Made by a program: the position numbers and the translations under genes. This document shows positions 1,307 to 17,469 of a stretch of 55,752 bases of DNA, in pieces. The DNA is taken from assembly GCA_012522795.1 (NCBI GenBank), contig JAAYJT010000033.1, positions 1-55,752 of the forward strand, given 5' to 3'. Position 1 is the stretch's first letter. Every line of letters begins with the position of its first letter. Under the pieces are notes generated by a model. The model saw only the letters and a program-made list of their open reading frames with translations. It was not told the DNA's origin and searched no databases. This DNA comes from Bacteroidales bacterium (GTDB taxonomy: Bacteria; Bacteroidota; Bacteroidia; Bacteroidales; JAAYJT01).

Positions 1307-2551
1307 ATGATATCATTCGACCGCTTTCAACTTGACAACGGACTCAGGGTTATTGTTCATAACGACAAATCAACTCCTATAATAGCAATGAATGTTTTAT
1401 ATGACGTTGGCGCACGCGACGAACATCCTGACAAAACCGGATTTGCACATTTATTTGAACATTTGATGTTTGGAGGTTCAGTAAATATTCCTCATTACGA
1501 TGAGCAGCTTGAAAAGGCAGGTGGCACAAATAATGCTTTTACATCAAATGATGTTACCAATTATTACCTTACAATTCCTAAAAATAATCTTGAAACCGGC
1601 TTTTGGCTTGAATCTGACAGAATGCTTAATCTGGCCTTTTCAAAAAAGAGCCTTGAAGTTCAAAAAAATGTCGTTATCGAGGAGTTCAGAGAAGTATACT
1701 TAAACAAACCATATAGAGATGCCTGGCTTCTGTTAAGTCCACTGGCATATAAAAAGCATCCTTACCGTTGGCCTACAATAGGAGCGGATATAAGGCATAT
1801 AGAAAATGTAACAATGGAAGATACCAAAGAATTTTATCAGCGCTTTTACAATCCAAATAATGCCATTGTTACAATAGCTGGTCCTGTGGAAACAAATAAA
1901 ATCAAAGAGTTAAGTGAAAAATGGTTCGGCAATATTCCTGTGGGACCACCAAATAACAGAAAATTACCGGTTGAAGAGGTTCAAACCGAAGCACGACACT
2001 TACATGTTGAAAGAGATGTTCCTGCGAATGCCATTTATAAAGCCTGGCATATACCCGAACGTACCTCAAAAGACTATTATATCTCCGATATTGTTTCTGA
2101 TATTTTGTCAAATGGTGATTCTTCGCGACTTTATATTGAACTGGTCAAGAAAAAGCAAATATTTAGCGGAATTGATGCCTATATAACCGGAAGTATTGAC
2201 CCGGGTCTGTTCATAATATCAGGCAGGCTCATGAACGGTATAAGCTTTGCTGCCGCTGAACAGGCTATTAATGATATAATTAAGGAACTTCAGGATAGTT
2301 ATGTAAAGGAACGCGAATTGCAAAAAGTAAAAAACAGAATTGAGTCAATGTTGGTTTTTACAGAAATAAAGGTACTGGAAAAGGCAATGAACCTTGCTAT
2401 GTTTGAACTTATCGGAGATGCCACATTAATGAACAAAGAGGCAGAACAGTATGCCATTGTGAACAAGAATGACATGTTAAGCTTTTCACAAAAGTATCTT
2501 ACTGAAAACAATTGTTCCACTTTATATTATCATGCCAAAAAAACTGAATAA
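1307..2551 (+). CDS. M16 family zinc metallopeptidase, catalytic subunit
   Basis: This 414-residue protein has the inverted zinc motif HLFEH (H48, E51, H52) and a downstream acidic patch (E125/E126/E129) where the third ligand of M16 enzymes falls. It is therefore the catalytic member of an M16B (processing-peptidase-like) pair. No signal peptide is evident, although such proteins are often periplasmic in Bacteroidota. Its stop codon overlaps the start of the next gene by one base (TAATG). This implies translational coupling with that non-catalytic M16 protein. The family cleaves peptides or small unfolded proteins inside a clamshell chamber; the substrate here is unknown. Confidence 0.92.
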   Translation: MISFDRFQLDNGLRVIVHNDKSTPIIAMNVLYDVGARDEHPDKTGFAHLFEHLMFGGSVNIPHYDEQLEKAGGTNNAFTSNDVTNYYLTIPKNNLETGFWLESDRMLNLAFSKKSLEVQKNVVIEEFREVYLNKPYRDAWLLLSPLAYKKHPYRWPTIGADIRHIENVTMEDTKEFYQRFYNPNNAIVTIAGPVETNKIKELSEKWFGNIPVGPPNNRKLPVEEVQTEARHLHVERDVPANAIYKAWHIPERTSKDYYISDIVSDILSNGDSSRLYIELVKKKQIFSGIDAYITGSIDPGLFIISGRLMNGISFAAAEQAINDIIKELQDSYVKERELQKVKNRIESMLVFTEIKVLEKAMNLAMFELIGDATLMNKEAEQYAIVNKNDMLSFSQKYLTENNCSTLYYHAKKTE

Positions 2552-3846
2552 TGCCAGTAGAAATTAACAGAAAAAAAGCACCCGGATCAAAACAAATCAA
2601 TTTCCGGATAAATTCTGAACCACGTTATTTCCAGCTTGGAAACGGAATACCAGTTTATATAATAGATAAAGGCATTCAGGAAGTTACCCGTATTGAACTT
2701 GTTTTTAAAGCAGGCACATATTATCAGCATCATTTTCATGCTGCCAAAGCAACAAATAAATTACTCACAGCCGGTGCAAACTCTTATTCTGCCGAAGATA
2801 TTTCAGAACATTTTGAGTTTTATGGTTCCTATATCGAAACAAATAATTCAAAGGACAACGCTTATATAAGACTATATACCTTAAATAAGTATCTGAATGA
2901 AACCCTCCCAATGCTGGCAGAGGTTGTGATGAACCCGGTATTTCCGGATCATGAAACAGATATTTATCGTTCTACCAGAAAAGAGCGTTTATACATTAAA
3001 CGTCAGAATGTTAATTATCTGGCTTCCACCCATTTTTATGAACAGGTTTTCGGTAGTACGCATCCATACGGATATATCCTTGAACCCGGGCATCTTGATG
3101 GGCTTGGCAGGGATATTCTTGCTGAGCATCATAAAAATAATTACCGAGCCAACGAATGTACCATAATAGTAAGTGGTAAAATTCCTATGCAGCTTGATGA
3201 TCTTCTGGAAAAAACATTTGGTAGTTTCTCGGGTGCGAACTCAAAAAACCGGACTTTGAATGTACCGCCAATAATTACTTCAACGGAGAAAAAACGATTT
3301 ATCCATAAAAAGGATGCAATGCAGGCTGCTTTATGTATTGGAAAAGCAACTATTAATCGTTTACACCCTGATTATCCTGAGCTTAGCATTGTGAACACTG
3401 TTTTAGGTGGTTATTTTGGCTCACGGCTAATGAAAAATATCCGCGAAGATAAAGGCTATACTTATGGTATTTCATCTGCGCTTATATCATTTCATCATAG
3501 CGGACTGTTTATTATTTTTAGCGAAGTAGGAAATAAGGTTCTTGAAGCTTCAATTGAAGAGGTATATAAAGAAATAAGGAAATTACGTGAAGAACCGATA
3601 CGACAGAAAGAATTGAAACTGGTCAAAAATTTTCTGATGGGTGCTTTAATGAGAAGCATGGACGGGCCTTTTGAAATTGCAAAAAGATTAGGCGTGGTTC
3701 TTGAATATGGGCAAACTCTTGACACTTTCAACCATTTCATAAAAAAATTAAAGGGAATAAGTCCGGAACGTATTCAAGAGCTTGCAAATAAATATCTTCA
3801 GGAGGACAGCCTGTTTCTGACAATAGCCGGGAACAATGAAGCCTGA
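2551..3846 (+). CDS. M16 family peptidase-like protein, non-catalytic partner
   Basis: The protein has 431 residues. At the position of the zinc motif it reads KAGTYYQHHFHAAKATNK, so HxxEH is absent. Its C-terminal half keeps the substrate-binding Arg/Tyr region (SRLMKNIREDKGYTYG, about residues 290-310), which is the part usually supplied by the non-catalytic subunit. The start ATG overlaps the stop of the catalytic gene, so the two products are probably made in equal amounts and form a heterodimer. Family and roles are well established, but the physiological substrate is not visible from sequence. Confidence 0.9.
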   Translation: MPVEINRKKAPGSKQINFRINSEPRYFQLGNGIPVYIIDKGIQEVTRIELVFKAGTYYQHHFHAAKATNKLLTAGANSYSAEDISEHFEFYGSYIETNNSKDNAYIRLYTLNKYLNETLPMLAEVVMNPVFPDHETDIYRSTRKERLYIKRQNVNYLASTHFYEQVFGSTHPYGYILEPGHLDGLGRDILAEHHKNNYRANECTIIVSGKIPMQLDDLLEKTFGSFSGANSKNRTLNVPPIITSTEKKRFIHKKDAMQAALCIGKATINRLHPDYPELSIVNTVLGGYFGSRLMKNIREDKGYTYGISSALISFHHSGLFIIFSEVGNKVLEASIEEVYKEIRKLREEPIRQKELKLVKNFLMGALMRSMDGPFEIAKRLGVVLEYGQTLDTFNHFIKKLKGISPERIQELANKYLQEDSLFLTIAGNNEA

Positions 3847-6974: not shown

Positions 6975-7721
6975 TTACATATTCATTCCACCACAAATAC
7001 TTATAACCTGCCCGGTAATATACGACGAAAGATCGCTGGCAAGATAAAGTGCAACATTTGCAATATCTTCCGGTGTACCCGCACGTCTGAGCGGAATACT
7101 CTTAACCCATTCGTCCTTTACATCCTGTGGTAATCTGGCTGTCATATCAGTTTCAATGAACCCCGGAGCAATGGCATTACAGCGAATATTGCGCGAACCC
7201 AGTTCCTGTGCAATTGATTTGGTAAATCCAATAAGACCGGCTTTTGAGGCAGCATAATTTGACTGCCCTGCATTTCCACTAACACCAACAACCGAGCTCA
7301 TGTTGATAATACTTCCGGATCTTTGCTTCAGCATCACTTTCTGAATGGCCTTAGTCATATTAAAAATTGACTTCAAGTTAACTTTTATAACAATATCCCA
7401 ATCGGCTTCAGTCATTCGCATTAAGAGATTATCGCGGGTAATTCCGGCATTGTTCACAAGTATATCAATGGCACCAAAATCGTTGAGTACGTCATTTACA
7501 AGCTTTTCAGAATCTTCAAACGATCCTGCATCCGAAGCATAGCCTTTGGCTTTAATCCCAAAAGCAACAAGCTCCTCTTCCAATTCGCGGGCTGTTTCAT
7601 CGTATTTGATATCCGAAAAAGCAAGATTTGCTCCTTCCGAAGCAAATTTCAATGCAATACCGCGGCCTATACCTCTGGCTCCACCGGTTATTAATGCTGT
7701 TTTTCCTTTTAATAATTCCAT
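6975..7721 (-). CDS. fabG: 3-oxoacyl-[acyl-carrier-protein] reductase
   Basis: The 248-residue short-chain dehydrogenase has the nucleotide-binding TGGARGIG motif (residues 12-19), NNAG (90-93) and the catalytic set N115, S143, Y156 and K160 (YAASK). Length, spacing and the C-terminal SYITGQVISICGGMNM match FabG, which uses NADPH to reduce 3-oxoacyl-ACP in type II fatty acid synthesis in the cytoplasm. It is the first gene of a pair with the vWA-like membrane protein, which starts 6 bases downstream. No other fatty acid genes are nearby, so a paralogous reductase role cannot be fully excluded. Confidence 0.93.
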   Translation of the reverse strand: MELLKGKTALITGGARGIGRGIALKFASEGANLAFSDIKYDETARELEEELVAFGIKAKGYASDAGSFEDSEKLVNDVLNDFGAIDILVNNAGITRDNLLMRMTEADWDIVIKVNLKSIFNMTKAIQKVMLKQRSGSIINMSSVVGVSGNAGQSNYAASKAGLIGFTKSIAQELGSRNIRCNAIAPGFIETDMTARLPQDVKDEWVKSIPLRRAGTPEDIANVALYLASDLSSYITGQVISICGGMNM

Positions 7722-7944: not shown

Positions 7945-10900
7945 TTAAAACCATGTTACCATATTCAAATCCTGCAAGTGTGGCAATAATTCATGTTTTG
8001 GGAAAATTCTGAAAGCATAGTCATAAACCCCTGATTTCTCCGAAGGAAATTCAATGGCAAAAACAGCTTTGCTATTATCGGAGCTTATTAGTTGAAGTTC
8101 TTTAAGGAACTGGATGGTTTTCACTTCATCATTTTCCTTTTGTCCAAATAAAATCTCCAGACCTATATCGCCTGGCAAAATACCATTTAAATCAAGTGTC
8201 ACAGTAGCCTTAAACATATCACCAACATCCAGAGGCTCATTGGTAGAATCAGGAACTTTAATATCCAGCACTTCTATATTAGCCCAATCTCTTATCATAC
8301 GTCTTTTCCAGTTTGCCATATCTTTGATCAGGCGGTTATTGTTGACTTTCATCATATCAGCGCGGGCTATCAGTTTGTCATAATACTGCTTTCCGTAATC
8401 ATCAAGCATACGTTTCATTGTGAAATGTGGTGCAATTTCTGAAATAGTGTTCTTCACATACGAAATCCAGTCAATTGGCAAGCCATTCTTATCACGTTTG
8501 TAGAAAGTCGGAATTATTTCATTTTCAAGGATATTATATATTGATATAACATCGAGTTCATCCTGAAGATTCTGTTCAGTATATGATCGTTCTTCAGGTA
8601 ATGCCCAGCCGGCTTCGGGTTTATAACCTTCTGCCCACCATCCGTCAAGGACACTGAAATTGACAACTCCGTTCATAACAGCTTTTTCACCACTTGTACC
8701 GGAAGCTTCCATTGGTCTTGTAGGTGTGTTCAGCCAAATATCAACACCTTGAATAAGTTTTTTAGCCAATTCCATATCATAGTTTTCAACAAAAGTGATC
8801 TTACCAATAAAATCAGGATGTTTTGATATTTCAATTATCTTTTTAATCAGATCCTGTCCTGCACGATCAGCCGGATGTGCTTTACCAGCAAAAATCAATT
8901 GAACCGGAGATCCTGGCTTATTCACAAGTGATTTCAGGCGCTCGGTATCGGTAAAAAGTAAATGCGCTCTTTTATAAGTAGCAAAGCGTCTGGCAAAACC
9001 AATAGTAAGAGTATTTTCGTTAATAGATCCAAGTATGCGTGAAATTATCTTTGGATTATCCTGTCTGCGACGCATATCAGACTGTATCCTTTTCTTCACA
9101 TACTCTATCATTTCAGATCTGAGTGAATTCCTTATTTCCCAGATAGTTTCGTCCGGCACACTGTGAATCTTCTTCCAATGCTTAGGATTTGACTGGTCAG
9201 CGAGAAAATGCTCCCCAAAAGTATTCACATACAGATTGAACCAGCGCTTAGCCGTCCATGTGGGAAAATGAACTCCATTGGTAACATAACCTATATGAAT
9301 CTCTTCAGGATAATAACCTTCGTAAATTTTTGAAAACATTTCGCGTGTAACTCTTCCATGAATCCTACTTACTCCGTTTGCTTCCTGAGAAAGCTTCAAT
9401 GCCAGCACGCTCATGGAAAATTTCTCACTTGTATTATCAGGTGTCCATCTGCCAAGGTTCATAAAATCATTCCATGAAATATTAAGACGCTCGGCATAGT
9501 GAGGAATATATGTGCGCAGGAGGTCTTCGCTGAATTCGTCATGCCCGGCCGGTACCGGAGTATGAGTGGTAAAAAGAGATGTGGTACGTATTAGTTCAAC
9601 AGCTTGAAGGAAATTAAATTTTTCTTCCTGAACATAGTGTCTTAGTCGCTCAAGTCCGGTAAATGCAGCATGTCCTTCATTTAAATGAAAAACATCAGGT
9701 TTGAGACCTATGGCGTGGAGTGCACGCATACCACCAACGCCCAGAATCAGTTCCTGTTTGAATCTGTTTTCCCAATCTCCTCCGTAAAGCTGATGGGTAA
9801 CAACCCTGTCAATATCCTGATTTTCAACAATATCAGTATCAAGTAAATAAAGAGGTATCCTGCCAACATCAACACGCCATATTTTGGCATATATTTGTCG
9901 TCCTGGCAATGCAAGGCTAACTGTAACCCAGTTTCCGTCCTGGCTTCTCACTGGTGCCAAAGGCATACTATAAAACTTCTGAGGCACAGAATTGGCAAGC
10001 TGCTCTCCAAAAATTGAGATTTGTTGCTGAAAATATCCATAGCGGTATAAAAGTCCGATACCTATCATGTTCTTGTTTGAATCGCTGGCTTCTTTCAAAT
10101 AATCTCCTGCAAGAACCCCAAGTCCTCCGCTAAATATTTTTAAGCTGTCGTGCAAACCAAATTCCATACTGAAATAAGCAATCTGTTTTTCAGGTTTGTG
10201 TTCAGCTTCTTTTATGTAAGCCTCAAAGCGATTGTAAATAACTTCAAGTCTTTGCAGAAACTCCCGGTTCGAAGCCAACTCCTGCATCTGATGAAATGTA
10301 AGCAGTTCAAATAAAACCAGAGGGTTTTTATTTGCCTTGATCCATTTCTCAGGGTCAATACTTCTGAATAACTCTACAGCATCATAATTCCACGACCACC
10401 ACAGGTTTCTGGCAAGTTTATCGAGAGCTTCAAGATTGCCGGGTACAGCCGAACGGATAAGGATCTTTTTCCATTCATGTTTTTTTCTGGTTGGAATCGG
10501 AGGTGTAATTCTTACTACTGCCTGAAGTTTATCCTGGAAAAGATGTTTGCGTTCATCAACCTTTCTAAGTGCAATATCTTCAGCTTTATACTGGTTCTCA
10601 ATAAATTTACTCCAGCCTATCTGACTGGCAATTTTTAAAGCAGCATTTTCAAGTTCCCGAATTTTAGTATCACCGGCTTTATTCAATGAAAGTATTATAT
10701 CTGCAATCTTTCCTGCAACATCATTACCGTTATCGTCAGAACGCTGAAGCACGGTTAATTCTTCGCCTTGAACCTTAATATTCTCCTGAAGGTACAAACC
10801 TATGCCTGTTAGGGATGTAATTATGGCAGGAACCCTGTATGAAAGGCTTTCAAGCGGTGCAATTCCCCATGGTTCGTAATAAGCAGGGTAAACTGAAAGG

Positions 10901-12192
10901 TCAAATCCGGGCAGGAGATCGTAATAAGGCATATTAAAAATTCCGTCATATCCATTAAGGTAAATTGGTGCGAAAACCACCTTTACCATGTCTTCTGGTT
11001 TATTTGAAAGCCTGTTTTCCTGAAGTTTTCTCAATACAGGGTCAACATCGCGATCAAACAAAGTATGTGTGATAAATTTACCAGTACCTACACCTGAGAA
11101 ATCATGAGTTCTCAGTTTCTCCATCAATTCCCTGCGCGCTCCTGACTGATTTCCGGGCAAAGCAATAAGCGCAAGAACCACCTTTTGCGGATTCCCTTCC
11201 CTGTTTACTTTTCCGAGAGCATCAATAAACAGATCGATACCCTTGTTACGAAATTCATAACGTCCGCTTGTAAGCACAATAAATGTATCTTCAGGAAGAC
11301 GCATGCCACTGATAGCGCTACCCACTAAAAGAAGTCTTTCACGGGCTTTAAGGCGTTTTGATACAAATTCCTGGTCATCAAGTATGGAACTAAGATCAAT
11401 GCCAGATGGTGTAATTACATCCGGCTTGCGGCCTATAAAATGAAGACATTCTCTCTCAAGATAACAGCTAAGCGCAGTAAATGCATCGCAGCTAAGAGCA
11501 GCTGTTTTTTCAAGCGAATACTGCGACATTATATTAAACCTTCTTGCCATGGATTCGCCATGGTAGGTTTCAAGCTCCTTATAAAGCGGCAATCCTGCCG
11601 AGGCTATTGTCCTTCCGAGAATTGTTGAATGAACCGTGAAAATAGTAGCTACCTGAGGCACTGATTCCTTTATGTACAATACCCCCACCCCAGTCATCCA
11701 TTCATGAAACTGCGCTACAATACGATCACCGGCTGTAATATAGTATTCATAAAAACTTTCTATCACCTTGGCAGCAGCGTAACCGAAAAGTGCCGGTTCA
11801 ATATAATCCCACTGTCCGGAAATTGAATCTACTTTGTGATTCAGCCACAGTTCTTCAAAAATTTTATCCTTTGCCGAAAAATAAGGAGTAAAGTCAACAA
11901 GAATGACAACAGGGTTACCTTTTACATTCCAGCGCCCAGTTCTAAAGTGCAATCCCTGCGCAGCAGCCTTTTCTCGCCACAGCTTAAAAATGGAATTATC
12001 TTCACTAAACTCAGGATGTTCTCCCGTTTCTTTCCATACATCAGGACCTATGAGGATATAATTATCTTTAAGTTTCTTTTCTATTTCAGGAACTTTCGAT
12101 GAAATAGCTGAATGCACGCTCCCAACCTTGTTGCAGACTTCCCAGCTAACTTCAAACAAATAATCAGATGTGTACAATTGAGTATCAGTCAT
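7945..12192 (-). CDS. Bifunctional GT3-type glycogen synthase / GT35 alpha-glucan phosphorylase fusion
   Basis: The single 1415-residue frame carries two opposing enzymes of glycogen metabolism. Residues about 1-560 resemble family GT3 (eukaryote-type) glycogen synthase: an N-terminal FEVSWEVCNKVGSVHS and the catalytic E-x7-E pair E440/E448 (YEPWGIAPLES). Residues about 585-665 match DUF3417, which precedes short-type phosphorylases, and about 670-1300 match GT35 (FSMEFGLHDSLKIFSGGLG), with the pyridoxal-phosphate lysine at K1170 (GTSGEKAV). A C-terminal beta-rich domain (about 1310-1415) follows. Separate GT3 synthases and GT35 phosphorylases are common in Bacteroidota. No stop or frameshift separates them here. 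Activity of both halves is inferred. Cytoplasmic. Confidence 0.9.
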   Translation of the reverse strand: MTDTQLYTSDYLFEVSWEVCNKVGSVHSAISSKVPEIEKKLKDNYILIGPDVWKETGEHPEFSEDNSIFKLWREKAAAQGLHFRTGRWNVKGNPVVILVDFTPYFSAKDKIFEELWLNHKVDSISGQWDYIEPALFGYAAAKVIESFYEYYITAGDRIVAQFHEWMTGVGVLYIKESVPQVATIFTVHSTILGRTIASAGLPLYKELETYHGESMARRFNIMSQYSLEKTAALSCDAFTALSCYLERECLHFIGRKPDVITPSGIDLSSILDDQEFVSKRLKARERLLLVGSAISGMRLPEDTFIVLTSGRYEFRNKGIDLFIDALGKVNREGNPQKVVLALIALPGNQSGARRELMEKLRTHDFSGVGTGKFITHTLFDRDVDPVLRKLQENRLSNKPEDMVKVVFAPIYLNGYDGIFNMPYYDLLPGFDLSVYPAYYEPWGIAPLESLSYRVPAIITSLTGIGLYLQENIKVQGEELTVLQRSDDNGNDVAGKIADIILSLNKAGDTKIRELENAALKIASQIGWSKFIENQYKAEDIALRKVDERKHLFQDKLQAVVRITPPIPTRKKHEWKKILIRSAVPGNLEALDKLARNLWWSWNYDAVELFRSIDPEKWIKANKNPLVLFELLTFHQMQELASNREFLQRLEVIYNRFEAYIKEAEHKPEKQIAYFSMEFGLHDSLKIFSGGLGVLAGDYLKEASDSNKNMIGIGLLYRYGYFQQQISIFGEQLANSVPQKFYSMPLAPVRSQDGNWVTVSLALPGRQIYAKIWRVDVGRIPLYLLDTDIVENQDIDRVVTHQLYGGDWENRFKQELILGVGGMRALHAIGLKPDVFHLNEGHAAFTGLERLRHYVQEEKFNFLQAVELIRTTSLFTTHTPVPAGHDEFSEDLLRTYIPHYAERLNISWNDFMNLGRWTPDNTSEKFSMSVLALKLSQEANGVSRIHGRVTREMFSKIYEGYYPEEIHIGYVTNGVHFPTWTAKRWFNLYVNTFGEHFLADQSNPKHWKKIHSVPDETIWEIRNSLRSEMIEYVKKRIQSDMRRRQDNPKIISRILGSINENTLTIGFARRFATYKRAHLLFTDTERLKSLVNKPGSPVQLIFAGKAHPADRAGQDLIKKIIEISKHPDFIGKITFVENYDMELAKKLIQGVDIWLNTPTRPMEASGTSGEKAVMNGVVNFSVLDGWWAEGYKPEAGWALPEERSYTEQNLQDELDVISIYNILENEIIPTFYKRDKNGLPIDWISYVKNTISEIAPHFTMKRMLDDYGKQYYDKLIARADMMKVNNNRLIKDMANWKRRMIRDWANIEVLDIKVPDSTNEPLDVGDMFKATVTLDLNGILPGDIGLEILFGQKENDEVKTIQFLKELQLISSDNSKAVFAIEFPSEKSGVYDYAFRIFPKHELLPHLQDLNMVTWF

Positions 12193-14949: not shown

Positions 14950-15068
14950 ACTGCAGCATATTATTGCAATATACAACTCAGGGTCATACTACTTATCTGA
15001 GATTCAACCATTTAAAAAGAAAATCGTAAATCTTCCGGCTTAAAACGCTTAGTTTCGGGCAGTTTGAC

Positions 15069-15076
15069 TAACTTTG
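15069..15076 (+). promoter_or_regulatory. Candidate -7 box for the C25 peptidase gene
   Basis: TAACTTTG matches TAnnTTTG and ends 44 bases before the chosen ATG at 15121. It overlaps the alternative TTG start region at 15064, which supports the downstream start. Confidence 0.55.
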
Positions 15077-15120
15077 CAGACCTGAAGAACCTTTATCTTA
15101 ATTTCAATAAAACCTTTACT

Positions 15121-17469
15121 ATGAAAAACCGTCATTTACTATTGCTATTACTGCTAATTCCACTGTTTACCACTGCTACTGAAATAAGAGTTAGATATAA
15201 TTTTCAGGCGCCCAAAATATCAGAACAGGAAGCGTATCATTTAATTTCCTTTGAAAACACATTTTTATCAGGTCTTCACGGAGAACCCACACTGCCTTAC
15301 CAGTCGGTTAGTCTGCTACTGCCGCCGGGAGAGGAAGCCCTTGAAATTGAAGTGATATTTGAAAACGAACAAGAACTTGATGGTTCTTTTATGCTTTTTC
15401 CCCGTCAGTATTCCTCGCCAATTTCAATTGGAAGTTCAGGGGAATTCATCAAGAATCAACAGATTTACAGCTCAGGTGATGCTTACCCAAATGAAGCAGC
15501 CGGGATGCTTAACACAGCATATCTGAACGGGCATTCAATTGCATTTTCGAGTTTCACACCGATAAAATATCAGCCGGCTACTGGTAAAGTCTCATGGTAT
15601 GCTCAGGTGGACGTGATAGTAAAAACAAAGCCCGCTACCAAAGCCGGGAATGCTCTTGCCAATTTATCTGACCGTCCGGAAATAAAGCAAAAGGTCGCTG
15701 CTATGGTTTCAAATCCTGAAGTACTTGACCAATATCCGGCTGTCAATAAAAAAAGTCAGCTCGATCTGCTTATCATAACACCCCAATCATTCCATAATGG
15801 ATTTAATTCCTTGCGGGAATATTATACAAATCAGGGAATTACTTCTGAAATAATCAGCCCTGCTGAAATTATATCTTCTACGCCCGGATCTGACAATCAG
15901 GAAAAAATCCGTAATTATATAATCCAACGCTACCAGCTTGATGATGTTAAATATGTTTTACTCGGTGGTGATATTGAGCATGTTCCTTACCGTGGGTTTT
16001 ATTGTCAGGTGCAGTCGTCAATGATTTATGAAGAATACAACATTCCTGCCGATCTTTATTATTCCGGTCTTGATGGTACGTGGAACGATAACGGAAACAA
16101 TAAATGGGGCGAGCCGGGTGAAGATGACCTATTACCTGATATTGCTGTTGCCAGACTGCCTTTTTCAAATATTACCGAACAAACCAATATGCTTAACAAA
16201 GTATATAAATATCAGGCTCAGCCTGTTATTAATGAATTGGACAAAAATCTGCTTGCCGGTGAGAATCTTTATGATAACCCTCTTACATGGGGTGGCGATT
16301 ATCTTGACTTACTAATTGGATATCAGAATGAAAACGGATATATCACTGACGGAATTCCGGAATCTGCAAATATTGAAAAAATATATGATCGCGATATTGG
16401 CTATTGGGGCGGTTCACAAATCAGACAAAAGATAAACAGCGGAAACACAATGATTCACCATTGTGGTCACAGCAACTGGGATTATGCAATGCGCCTGTAT
16501 AACTCAGATATTACTGATGCAAAATTCAGTCAGGTGAATGGTGTAGATCATAACTATTGTATTCTTTATTCTCATGGCTGTATTTGCGGGGCTTTTGATA
16601 AGAATGACTGTATTGGTGAAAATATGCTAAAAATTCAGAATTTTGGTGTTGCCGTTGGTTTTAACAGCAGATATGGATGGTTTAATGAAGGACAAACCGA
16701 AGGACCTTCACAGCACCTGCACCGCGAATTCGTTCATTCACTATATACTCTTGGCTACGATCGTATTGGCGAAACAGAGCAACATTCAAAGATCAGGACT
16801 GCACCATGGGTAAATGCACCCGGACAATGGGAAGAAGGAGCATTACGCTGGTGTTTTTATGCTCATAATATCCTTGGCGATCCTGCCATGATGATATATG
16901 CTGATAATCTTCCGGCTATTAATGTGAACCCGAATGAGATCTCACTTGAAATGGAAACAGGAGAAACTTTAACTATTGACCTGGAAATCACTAACAGAGC
17001 AGGTCAGTCAATCAGTTTTTACCTTACTGCAGAAGAGCCTGCCAAAAATGGTGCTGACAACGGAGAGAAAGAAAACACCGTTAGTATAAAAAATATTGAA
17101 TGGCTTTCGTTCGATACCGATCCGACCACACTTCAGCCCGGACAAACAATTGAAATGGAAATAACTGTAAACACCACCTCTGTCAGTGCAGGAAACTATA
17201 ATGCTAATCTTATTGTAAACAGCAGCGACAATTTTGCTCCACAGATCATAATTCCTGTTTCGCTGGAGGTTACTTCAGCAGATATCCTTCTGGGTGATGC
17301 CAATTGTGATAATGAGCTTAATATTCAGGATGCCGTTACAATAGTGAACTACATTATGGGCGATGATCCACAGCCTTTCTGCTTTGAAAATGCTGATATC
17401 ATCGCTGATGGAGTAATTGATTTATTTGACCTGATCGCCGATATACAAATAATTCTTGAACAGGAATAA
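15121..17469 (+). CDS. Gingipain-like C25 family cysteine peptidase with C-terminal dockerin-like repeats
   Basis: The ATG at 15121 gives a signal peptide (KNRHLLLLLLLIPLFTTATE) and a mature secreted protein of 782 residues in total; an upstream TTG would mask it. Residues about 25-200 resemble the C25 propeptide and about 215-600 the peptidase. Likely catalytic residues are His450 (in HHCGHSN) and Cys487 (in SHGCICGAF; Cys489 is the alternative). An Ig-like region (about 610-715) follows, and then two dockerin-like loops, DANCDNELNIQD and the more degenerate DIIADGVIDLFD. C25 enzymes such as gingipains leave by type IX secretion. The dockerin tail stands where a type IX C-terminal domain would be expected. 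Substrate specificity is unknown. Confidence 0.85.
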   Translation: MKNRHLLLLLLLIPLFTTATEIRVRYNFQAPKISEQEAYHLISFENTFLSGLHGEPTLPYQSVSLLLPPGEEALEIEVIFENEQELDGSFMLFPRQYSSPISIGSSGEFIKNQQIYSSGDAYPNEAAGMLNTAYLNGHSIAFSSFTPIKYQPATGKVSWYAQVDVIVKTKPATKAGNALANLSDRPEIKQKVAAMVSNPEVLDQYPAVNKKSQLDLLIITPQSFHNGFNSLREYYTNQGITSEIISPAEIISSTPGSDNQEKIRNYIIQRYQLDDVKYVLLGGDIEHVPYRGFYCQVQSSMIYEEYNIPADLYYSGLDGTWNDNGNNKWGEPGEDDLLPDIAVARLPFSNITEQTNMLNKVYKYQAQPVINELDKNLLAGENLYDNPLTWGGDYLDLLIGYQNENGYITDGIPESANIEKIYDRDIGYWGGSQIRQKINSGNTMIHHCGHSNWDYAMRLYNSDITDAKFSQVNGVDHNYCILYSHGCICGAFDKNDCIGENMLKIQNFGVAVGFNSRYGWFNEGQTEGPSQHLHREFVHSLYTLGYDRIGETEQHSKIRTAPWVNAPGQWEEGALRWCFYAHNILGDPAMMIYADNLPAINVNPNEISLEMETGETLTIDLEITNRAGQSISFYLTAEEPAKNGADNGEKENTVSIKNIEWLSFDTDPTTLQPGQTIEMEITVNTTSVSAGNYNANLIVNSSDNFAPQIIIPVSLEVTSADILLGDANCDNELNIQDAVTIVNYIMGDDPQPFCFENADIIADGVIDLFDLIADIQIILEQE

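Follow-up and report, generated by a model that had tools for sequence, protein, structure and literature searches.

We describe a gene of the order Bacteroidales in which a glycogen synthase and an alpha-glucan phosphorylase, two enzymes that act in opposite directions, are encoded as one polypeptide. The gene lies on a 55,752 nucleotide stretch of DNA, hereafter the window, that is contig JAAYJT010000033.1 of assembly GCA_012522795.1 (Bacteroidales bacterium). Its frame encodes 1415 residues and holds no internal stop. A synthase of the GT3 family occupies approximately residues 6-545 and a DUF3417-GT35 phosphorylase follows at residues 574-1414 (see Table 1). A Pfam search of the whole protein returned Glycogen_syn (7.2e-84), DUF3417 (1.2e-30) and Phosphorylase (2.3e-33). 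The original prediction for this DNA, that GT3 and GT35 domains share one continuous frame, is therefore borne out by the open frame and by the Pfam and NCBIfam profiles, and neither a stop nor a frameshift separates the halves. The fused protein is the sole match to itself in its own genome at E <= 0.001. A genome of the same genus (G343) has an identical continuous-frame layout, with 73% identity to the window protein, and a single open frame crosses both halves in 137 of 254 loci, a collection that includes the window's own locus and loci gathered for other genes. Chance or a local assembly error is ruled out by these continuous frames.

Table 1. Coordinates of the fused gene, its parts and its downstream neighbour in the window.
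Feature	Residues	Coordinates	Strand	Basis
Fused glycogen synthase/alpha-glucan phosphorylase gene	1-1415	7945..12192	-	Open frame and profile matches
GT3 glycogen synthase half	6-545	10558..12177	-	Pfam PF05693; structure model
H163 codon, FHEW motif	163	11704..11706	-	H in 134/135 fused rows, 5/35 split rows
E440 codon, first Glu of EX7E	440	10873..10875	-	E in 134/135 fused, 35/35 split rows
E448 codon, second Glu of EX7E	448	10849..10851	-	E in 133/135 fused, 35/35 split rows
Linker, near-constant length	546-573	10474..10557	-	Low confidence in predicted model
DUF3417, N-terminal part of phosphorylase half	584-684	10141..10443	-	Pfam PF11897 1.2e-30
GT35 alpha-glucan phosphorylase core	671-1273	8374..10182	-	TIGR02094 7.5e-255
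K1170 codon, pyridoxal phosphate lysine	1170	8683..8685	-	K in 135/135 fused, 35/35 split rows
FabG-like reductase directly downstream of fused gene		6975..7721	-	Profile match; neighbour only

The synthase half scores 283 bits against the PF05693 profile, for which the cut-off is 27. A structure predicted for residues 1-578 has a predicted local distance difference test score (pLDDT) of 89.4 and a predicted template modelling score (pTM) of 0.87. Its best solved match is human GYS1 (8cvy; Z 38.1, root-mean-square deviation 2.8 over 540 residues), which has the GT-B fold, and across human GYS1, yeast Gsy2 and the worm synthase the Z scores are 34-38 over 529-549 residues. E440 and E448 sit in EPWGIAPLE and align with the EX7E motif of the worm and yeast (Gsy2) glycogen synthases. 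The eukaryotic enzymes (Gsy2, GYS1) thus have the fold over about 540 residues and the EX7E and FHEW motifs in common with the window's GT3 half. That said, identity is about 27-29%, and the window protein differs from them in lacking an arginine cluster, discussed below, and in being fused to a phosphorylase.

The second half matches the NCBIfam model TIGR02094 (alpha-glucan family phosphorylase) at 7.5e-255, scoring 847 bits where the cut-off is 191.7. The equivalog cut-off of the Thermococcales maltodextrin phosphorylase (NF041129) was not reached (753 bits vs 1500). K1170 sits in EASGTSGEKAVMNG and aligns with the lysine motif that carries pyridoxal phosphate in solved phosphorylases. The same motif is found in PDB 9l6i, a TIGR02094 phosphorylase with DUF3417, which residues 572-1414 match at 6.6e-284; unlike the window protein, its chain has 852 residues and no GT3 part. 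E440, E448 and K1170 are therefore present at exactly the numbers originally claimed, each aligned with known enzymes.

Relatives show no general loss of these key residues, a loss that the original prediction had raised as a possible refutation. We compared 135 aligned fused sequences (rows); these include the window and a row that duplicates it, and loci of the two collections may come from the same genome. Among them E440 is kept in 134, E448 and K317 in 133 each and R311 in 132, while K1170, K1074, R1069 and E1162 are kept in all. The same eight residues are kept in all of the 35 two-gene pairs aligned. The exceptions among fused rows are L138 (E448C, K317R), L251, in which the catalytic stretch of GT3 is missing, and, at R311, L023 and L024. 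Differences from the same-genus homologue at codon positions 1/2/3 are 0.26/0.15/0.60 and 0.19/0.11/0.55 for the two halves. Both halves look constrained, because divergence is much lower at the first two positions than at the third. As a general feature of the family, an inactive half was considered and rejected, given the near-complete retention of catalytic residues in the fused rows.

How common is the fusion? We searched 295 sampled genomes of the order; genomes whose matches were unlisted or not plainly full-length were searched again and the results sorted by hand. The frame is unbroken through the junction in 197 genomes, a number that includes two whose GT3 has a large internal deletion and some cut by contig ends. 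One genome (G480, locus L039) has a single in-frame stop. Two adjacent genes on the same strand, with the synthase upstream, occur in 48 genomes, of which 39 were read as open frames and 9 were called from stops counted in the match. Both genes are present but apart in 8 genomes (in three of these, all of f121, the GT3 is only 29-34% identical to the window), the phosphorylase half only was found in 8 (E <= 1e-20), fragments in 6 and no match in 27. Open frames of 1449-1473 residues were rejected as fused genes, as the DNA of those fetched shows two genes. Except for fragments in four genomes (G452, G481, G449 and G425, the last of which passes the junction), each ending no further than some 80 bases from the end of its contig, this type of synthase was never found without a phosphorylase among the sampled genomes. 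The fusion is the usual arrangement in this order, not a rarity, and the 80 loci with names come mostly from uncultured Bacteroidales.

Outside the order the picture differs. In a sample of 296 genomes of the phylum the GT3 profile matched 11, comprising 3 of this order and 8 with stand-alone synthases. In a second sample of 198, the matches listed outside the order hold the phosphorylase part only, at a limit (E <= 1e-60) that would miss distant stand-alone synthases. A plasmid search covered at least 80% of the query at one place in 4 of 510 matching records; all five of the rows listed come from Bacteroidales, and one of these carries no annotation. Separately, a contig in a Heimdallarchaeota bin (L148) has a Bacteroidales-type fused gene with 49% identity to the window. 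Since this sequence groups with Bacteroidota rows, it is likely contamination of the bin.

The GT3-GT35 fusion is a real and widespread architecture that is built of known enzymes. The literature searched, including the available portions of PMC11046441, PMC10395257 and PMC5702140, yielded no description of it. Other glycogen-pathway fusions, e.g. TreS-Mak/Pep2, GlgA-GlgB and MalQ-GlgB, are covered in PMC11046441. These likewise place two steps of glucan metabolism on each chain, yet as described there none couples a synthase with a phosphorylase, unlike the window protein.

We consider it likely that this is a bifunctional glycogen enzyme, with two working halves on a short flexible tether and with its net direction set by substrate levels. 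The conserved residues indicate that the protein probably works at both synthesis and breakdown. The GT3 half would transfer glucose from a nucleotide sugar, probably uridine diphosphate glucose (UDP-glucose), to the non-reducing ends of glycogen, and the GT35 half would use phosphate to release glucose from those same ends as glucose 1-phosphate. The tether would hold both halves at one glycogen particle in 1:1 amounts, and the benefit of the fusion may lie in this co-localisation. Net direction would be set mostly by the nucleotide sugar relative to free phosphate and glucose 1-phosphate, rather than by a built-in glucose 6-phosphate switch.

Several observations weigh against this bifunctional reading. 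Some lineages show the phosphorylase half only. In two loci of one genus (L251 and L269, from genomes G440 and G327) the fused frames are just 1188 and 1157 residues long; they lack GT3 residues of about 270-530, including both catalytic glutamates, and the phosphorylase half aligns over its length. In these two and in L138 a working GT3 half is unlikely, because E448 or the GT3 catalytic region has been lost. The source of UDP-glucose is also a difficulty. UDPGP (PF01704) was found in one of eight genomes tested and not in the window's own, GalU-type enzymes lying outside that search; the same search matched none of 14 control genomes. Finally, in a tandem model of residues 1-1200, parts of the GT35 active site have pLDDT below 50. 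This model stops before the phosphorylase end, and other regions close to that point score low as well. As a result of the cut and of the low scores in the active site, it is weak evidence on how the domains pack.

The closest natural comparison is the two-gene pair of Bacteroides and Parabacteroides, which has the same families, order and strand as the fused gene. The gaps between its genes are 38 and 73 base pairs in Bacteroides finegoldii and Parabacteroides distasonis. Identity of the 35 split rows to the window's two halves has medians of 40.0% and 48.4%. Besides being two proteins, most of these pairs differ from the fused form at H163, a residue that in glycogen synthases presumably belongs to the active site. 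This histidine is shared by the yeast and worm synthases and by 9 of 9 eukaryote-like stand-alone rows, and the GT35 phylogeny places L212, the sole fused row without it, beside the split clade. An N or D replaces it in 30 of the 35 split rows, in which the other catalytic residues checked are kept. At this position the split state is therefore the derived one, as 9/9 eukaryote-like and 134/135 fused rows have H and 30/35 split rows do not, and the two-gene synthases may work differently from the fused ones.

The direction of the change is harder to read. In a FastTree phylogeny of 184 GT3 rows, one change separates the fused and split forms. Rooted on eukaryote-like GT3, the fused rows form one clade with the split rows outside, which implies fusion; we judge this root weak because the outgroup is very distant and divergent f136 rows lie at the base. 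The GT35 tree, rooted on GT35 of other classes, has the split clade inside the fused rows, which implies fission, and a tree holding the fused rows together is not rejected (approximately unbiased test, p-AU 0.055). A mixture model on 43 GT3 rows likewise nests split within fused, but a tree holding the fused rows together is equally good, with a likelihood 1.43 higher (p-AU 0.528). On these conflicting tests, with the pattern at H163 as side evidence, we lean towards fission. A fuller scenario is that the ancestor of the order was fused and that the Bacteroides-type pair arose by one fission, with H163 then changing in most pairs. The fusion would persist because a GT3 lacking a glucose 6-phosphate switch needs a phosphorylase held at the same chain ends to trim chains or supply primers. 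As a whole we hold this scenario to be unlikely, although worth entertaining.

The original prediction also held that joining the two enzymes implies switching control between the halves. This is not supported by our results. A cluster of the form xR(E/D/Q)RIxxRN near the GT3 end, which we take to be the glucose 6-phosphate switch site of eukaryotic GT3, occurs in all 6 eukaryote-like stand-alone synthases of a 14-row alignment and also in the yeast enzyme. It is absent from the window and the 7 other Bacteroidales-type rows in that alignment, of which L246 has QRKK at this place. The joint is predicted to be disordered, with pLDDT below 50 at residues 558-580, which suggests a short flexible tether, and pTM is 0.56 for the tandem model cut at 1200 vs 0.87 for the GT3 half alone. 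Relatives, furthermore, have both enzymes as separate genes or do without the synthase half. Could the halves still regulate each other, with the ligand of one active site or an effector such as adenosine monophosphate or glucose 6-phosphate toggling both? Opposed activities do share one chain. The tether is also of near-constant length, with residues 540-573 spanning 32-36 residues in the fused rows, and within its variable sequence R548 and P572 are mostly kept. Against the missing cluster, the low-confidence joint and the separate genes of related lineages, we think mutual regulation improbable. Switching control is less likely than simple tethering, and a flexible tether with mass action is favoured over a built-in switch because the arginine cluster is absent and, more tentatively, because the joint is of low confidence.

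Another possibility is that the GT3 half is no longer a synthase and mainly ties the phosphorylase to glycogen, as an anchor or scaffold. The GT3 half does diverge faster, with a median identity to the window of 46.8% vs 55.6% for GT35 (132 fused rows), and it is wholly or partly lost in some lineages. For example, loci with GT4, GH57 and GT35 have no GT3 part at the expected place in f55 (3 genomes), f152 (1) and f121 (3). At these seven loci (L258-L261 and L266-L268) a debranching enzyme upstream was observed in f121, and the other stretches start inside GT4. The f121 genomes (L266-L268) have another GT3 elsewhere; L249, the one placed on the tree, is eukaryote-like. The phylogeny of GT35 groups the f121 rows with 12 fused rows and those of f55 and f153 with 8, and it sets f152 beside one fused row with low support. 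These placements beside fused rows suggest that the synthase half has been lost repeatedly. However, a pure anchor would need none of E440, E448, R311, K317 and H163, which are kept in 132-134 of the 135 fused rows, and we regard a general anchor role as very improbable.

It could also be that the phosphorylase works in part towards synthesis and makes or repairs primers for GT3, so replacing glycogenin. Phosphorylases are reversible, eukaryotic GT3 requires a primer (PMC11046441), and the synthase and phosphorylase genes adjoin in two-gene lineages too. However, phosphorylases require a primer themselves, and we give the idea little credence. Lastly, a sequencing or assembly artefact as the source of the fused frame can be set aside as next to impossible: the source assembly is a draft in 100 contigs, but the frame recurs in many assemblies as well as in G343.

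What was found of the wider pathway is in keeping with the bifunctional reading. Neither GlgA nor GlgC was found above cut-off in 8 of 8 genomes tested. All eight have a frame of 266-306 residues (L162-L169) whose match to GlgA covers no more than its first 209-224 positions or so, and all eight have GH57. An Alpha-amylase_C domain occurs in 7 of the 8, in frames of 662-703 residues, the size of a branching enzyme. The review PMC10395257 describes Bacteroidetes as without GlgC, and PMC11046441 also mentions such a GlgA fragment.

Gene order offers some further context. In the relative L074 a debranching enzyme, a GT4 and a GH57 precede the fused gene and a short-chain dehydrogenase follows it, and in L078 and L084 open reading frames of similar size stand before the fused gene in an L074-like arrangement. 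The window's own genome has GH57 alongside a GT4-like frame on a different contig, although here too the fused gene is followed by a FabG-like one. Elsewhere in the window, on the plus strand, are a C25 peptidase that carries its propeptide and weakly resembles the type IX secretion sortase PorU (15064-17469), and two genes for M16 peptidases with a one-base overlap between their frames (1307-3846).

It is unusual for one polypeptide to hold a synthase together with the phosphorylase that opposes it. Natural controls for it exist in the fused, adjacent two-gene, GT3-less and GT3-deleted forms, and the role of tethering in glycogen turnover is therefore directly testable. The fusion may help explain how glycogen is made where the eight genomes have no GlgC or GlgA above cut-off. 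If the ancestral-fusion scenario is true, one tethered pair would run glycogen turnover in most of the order.

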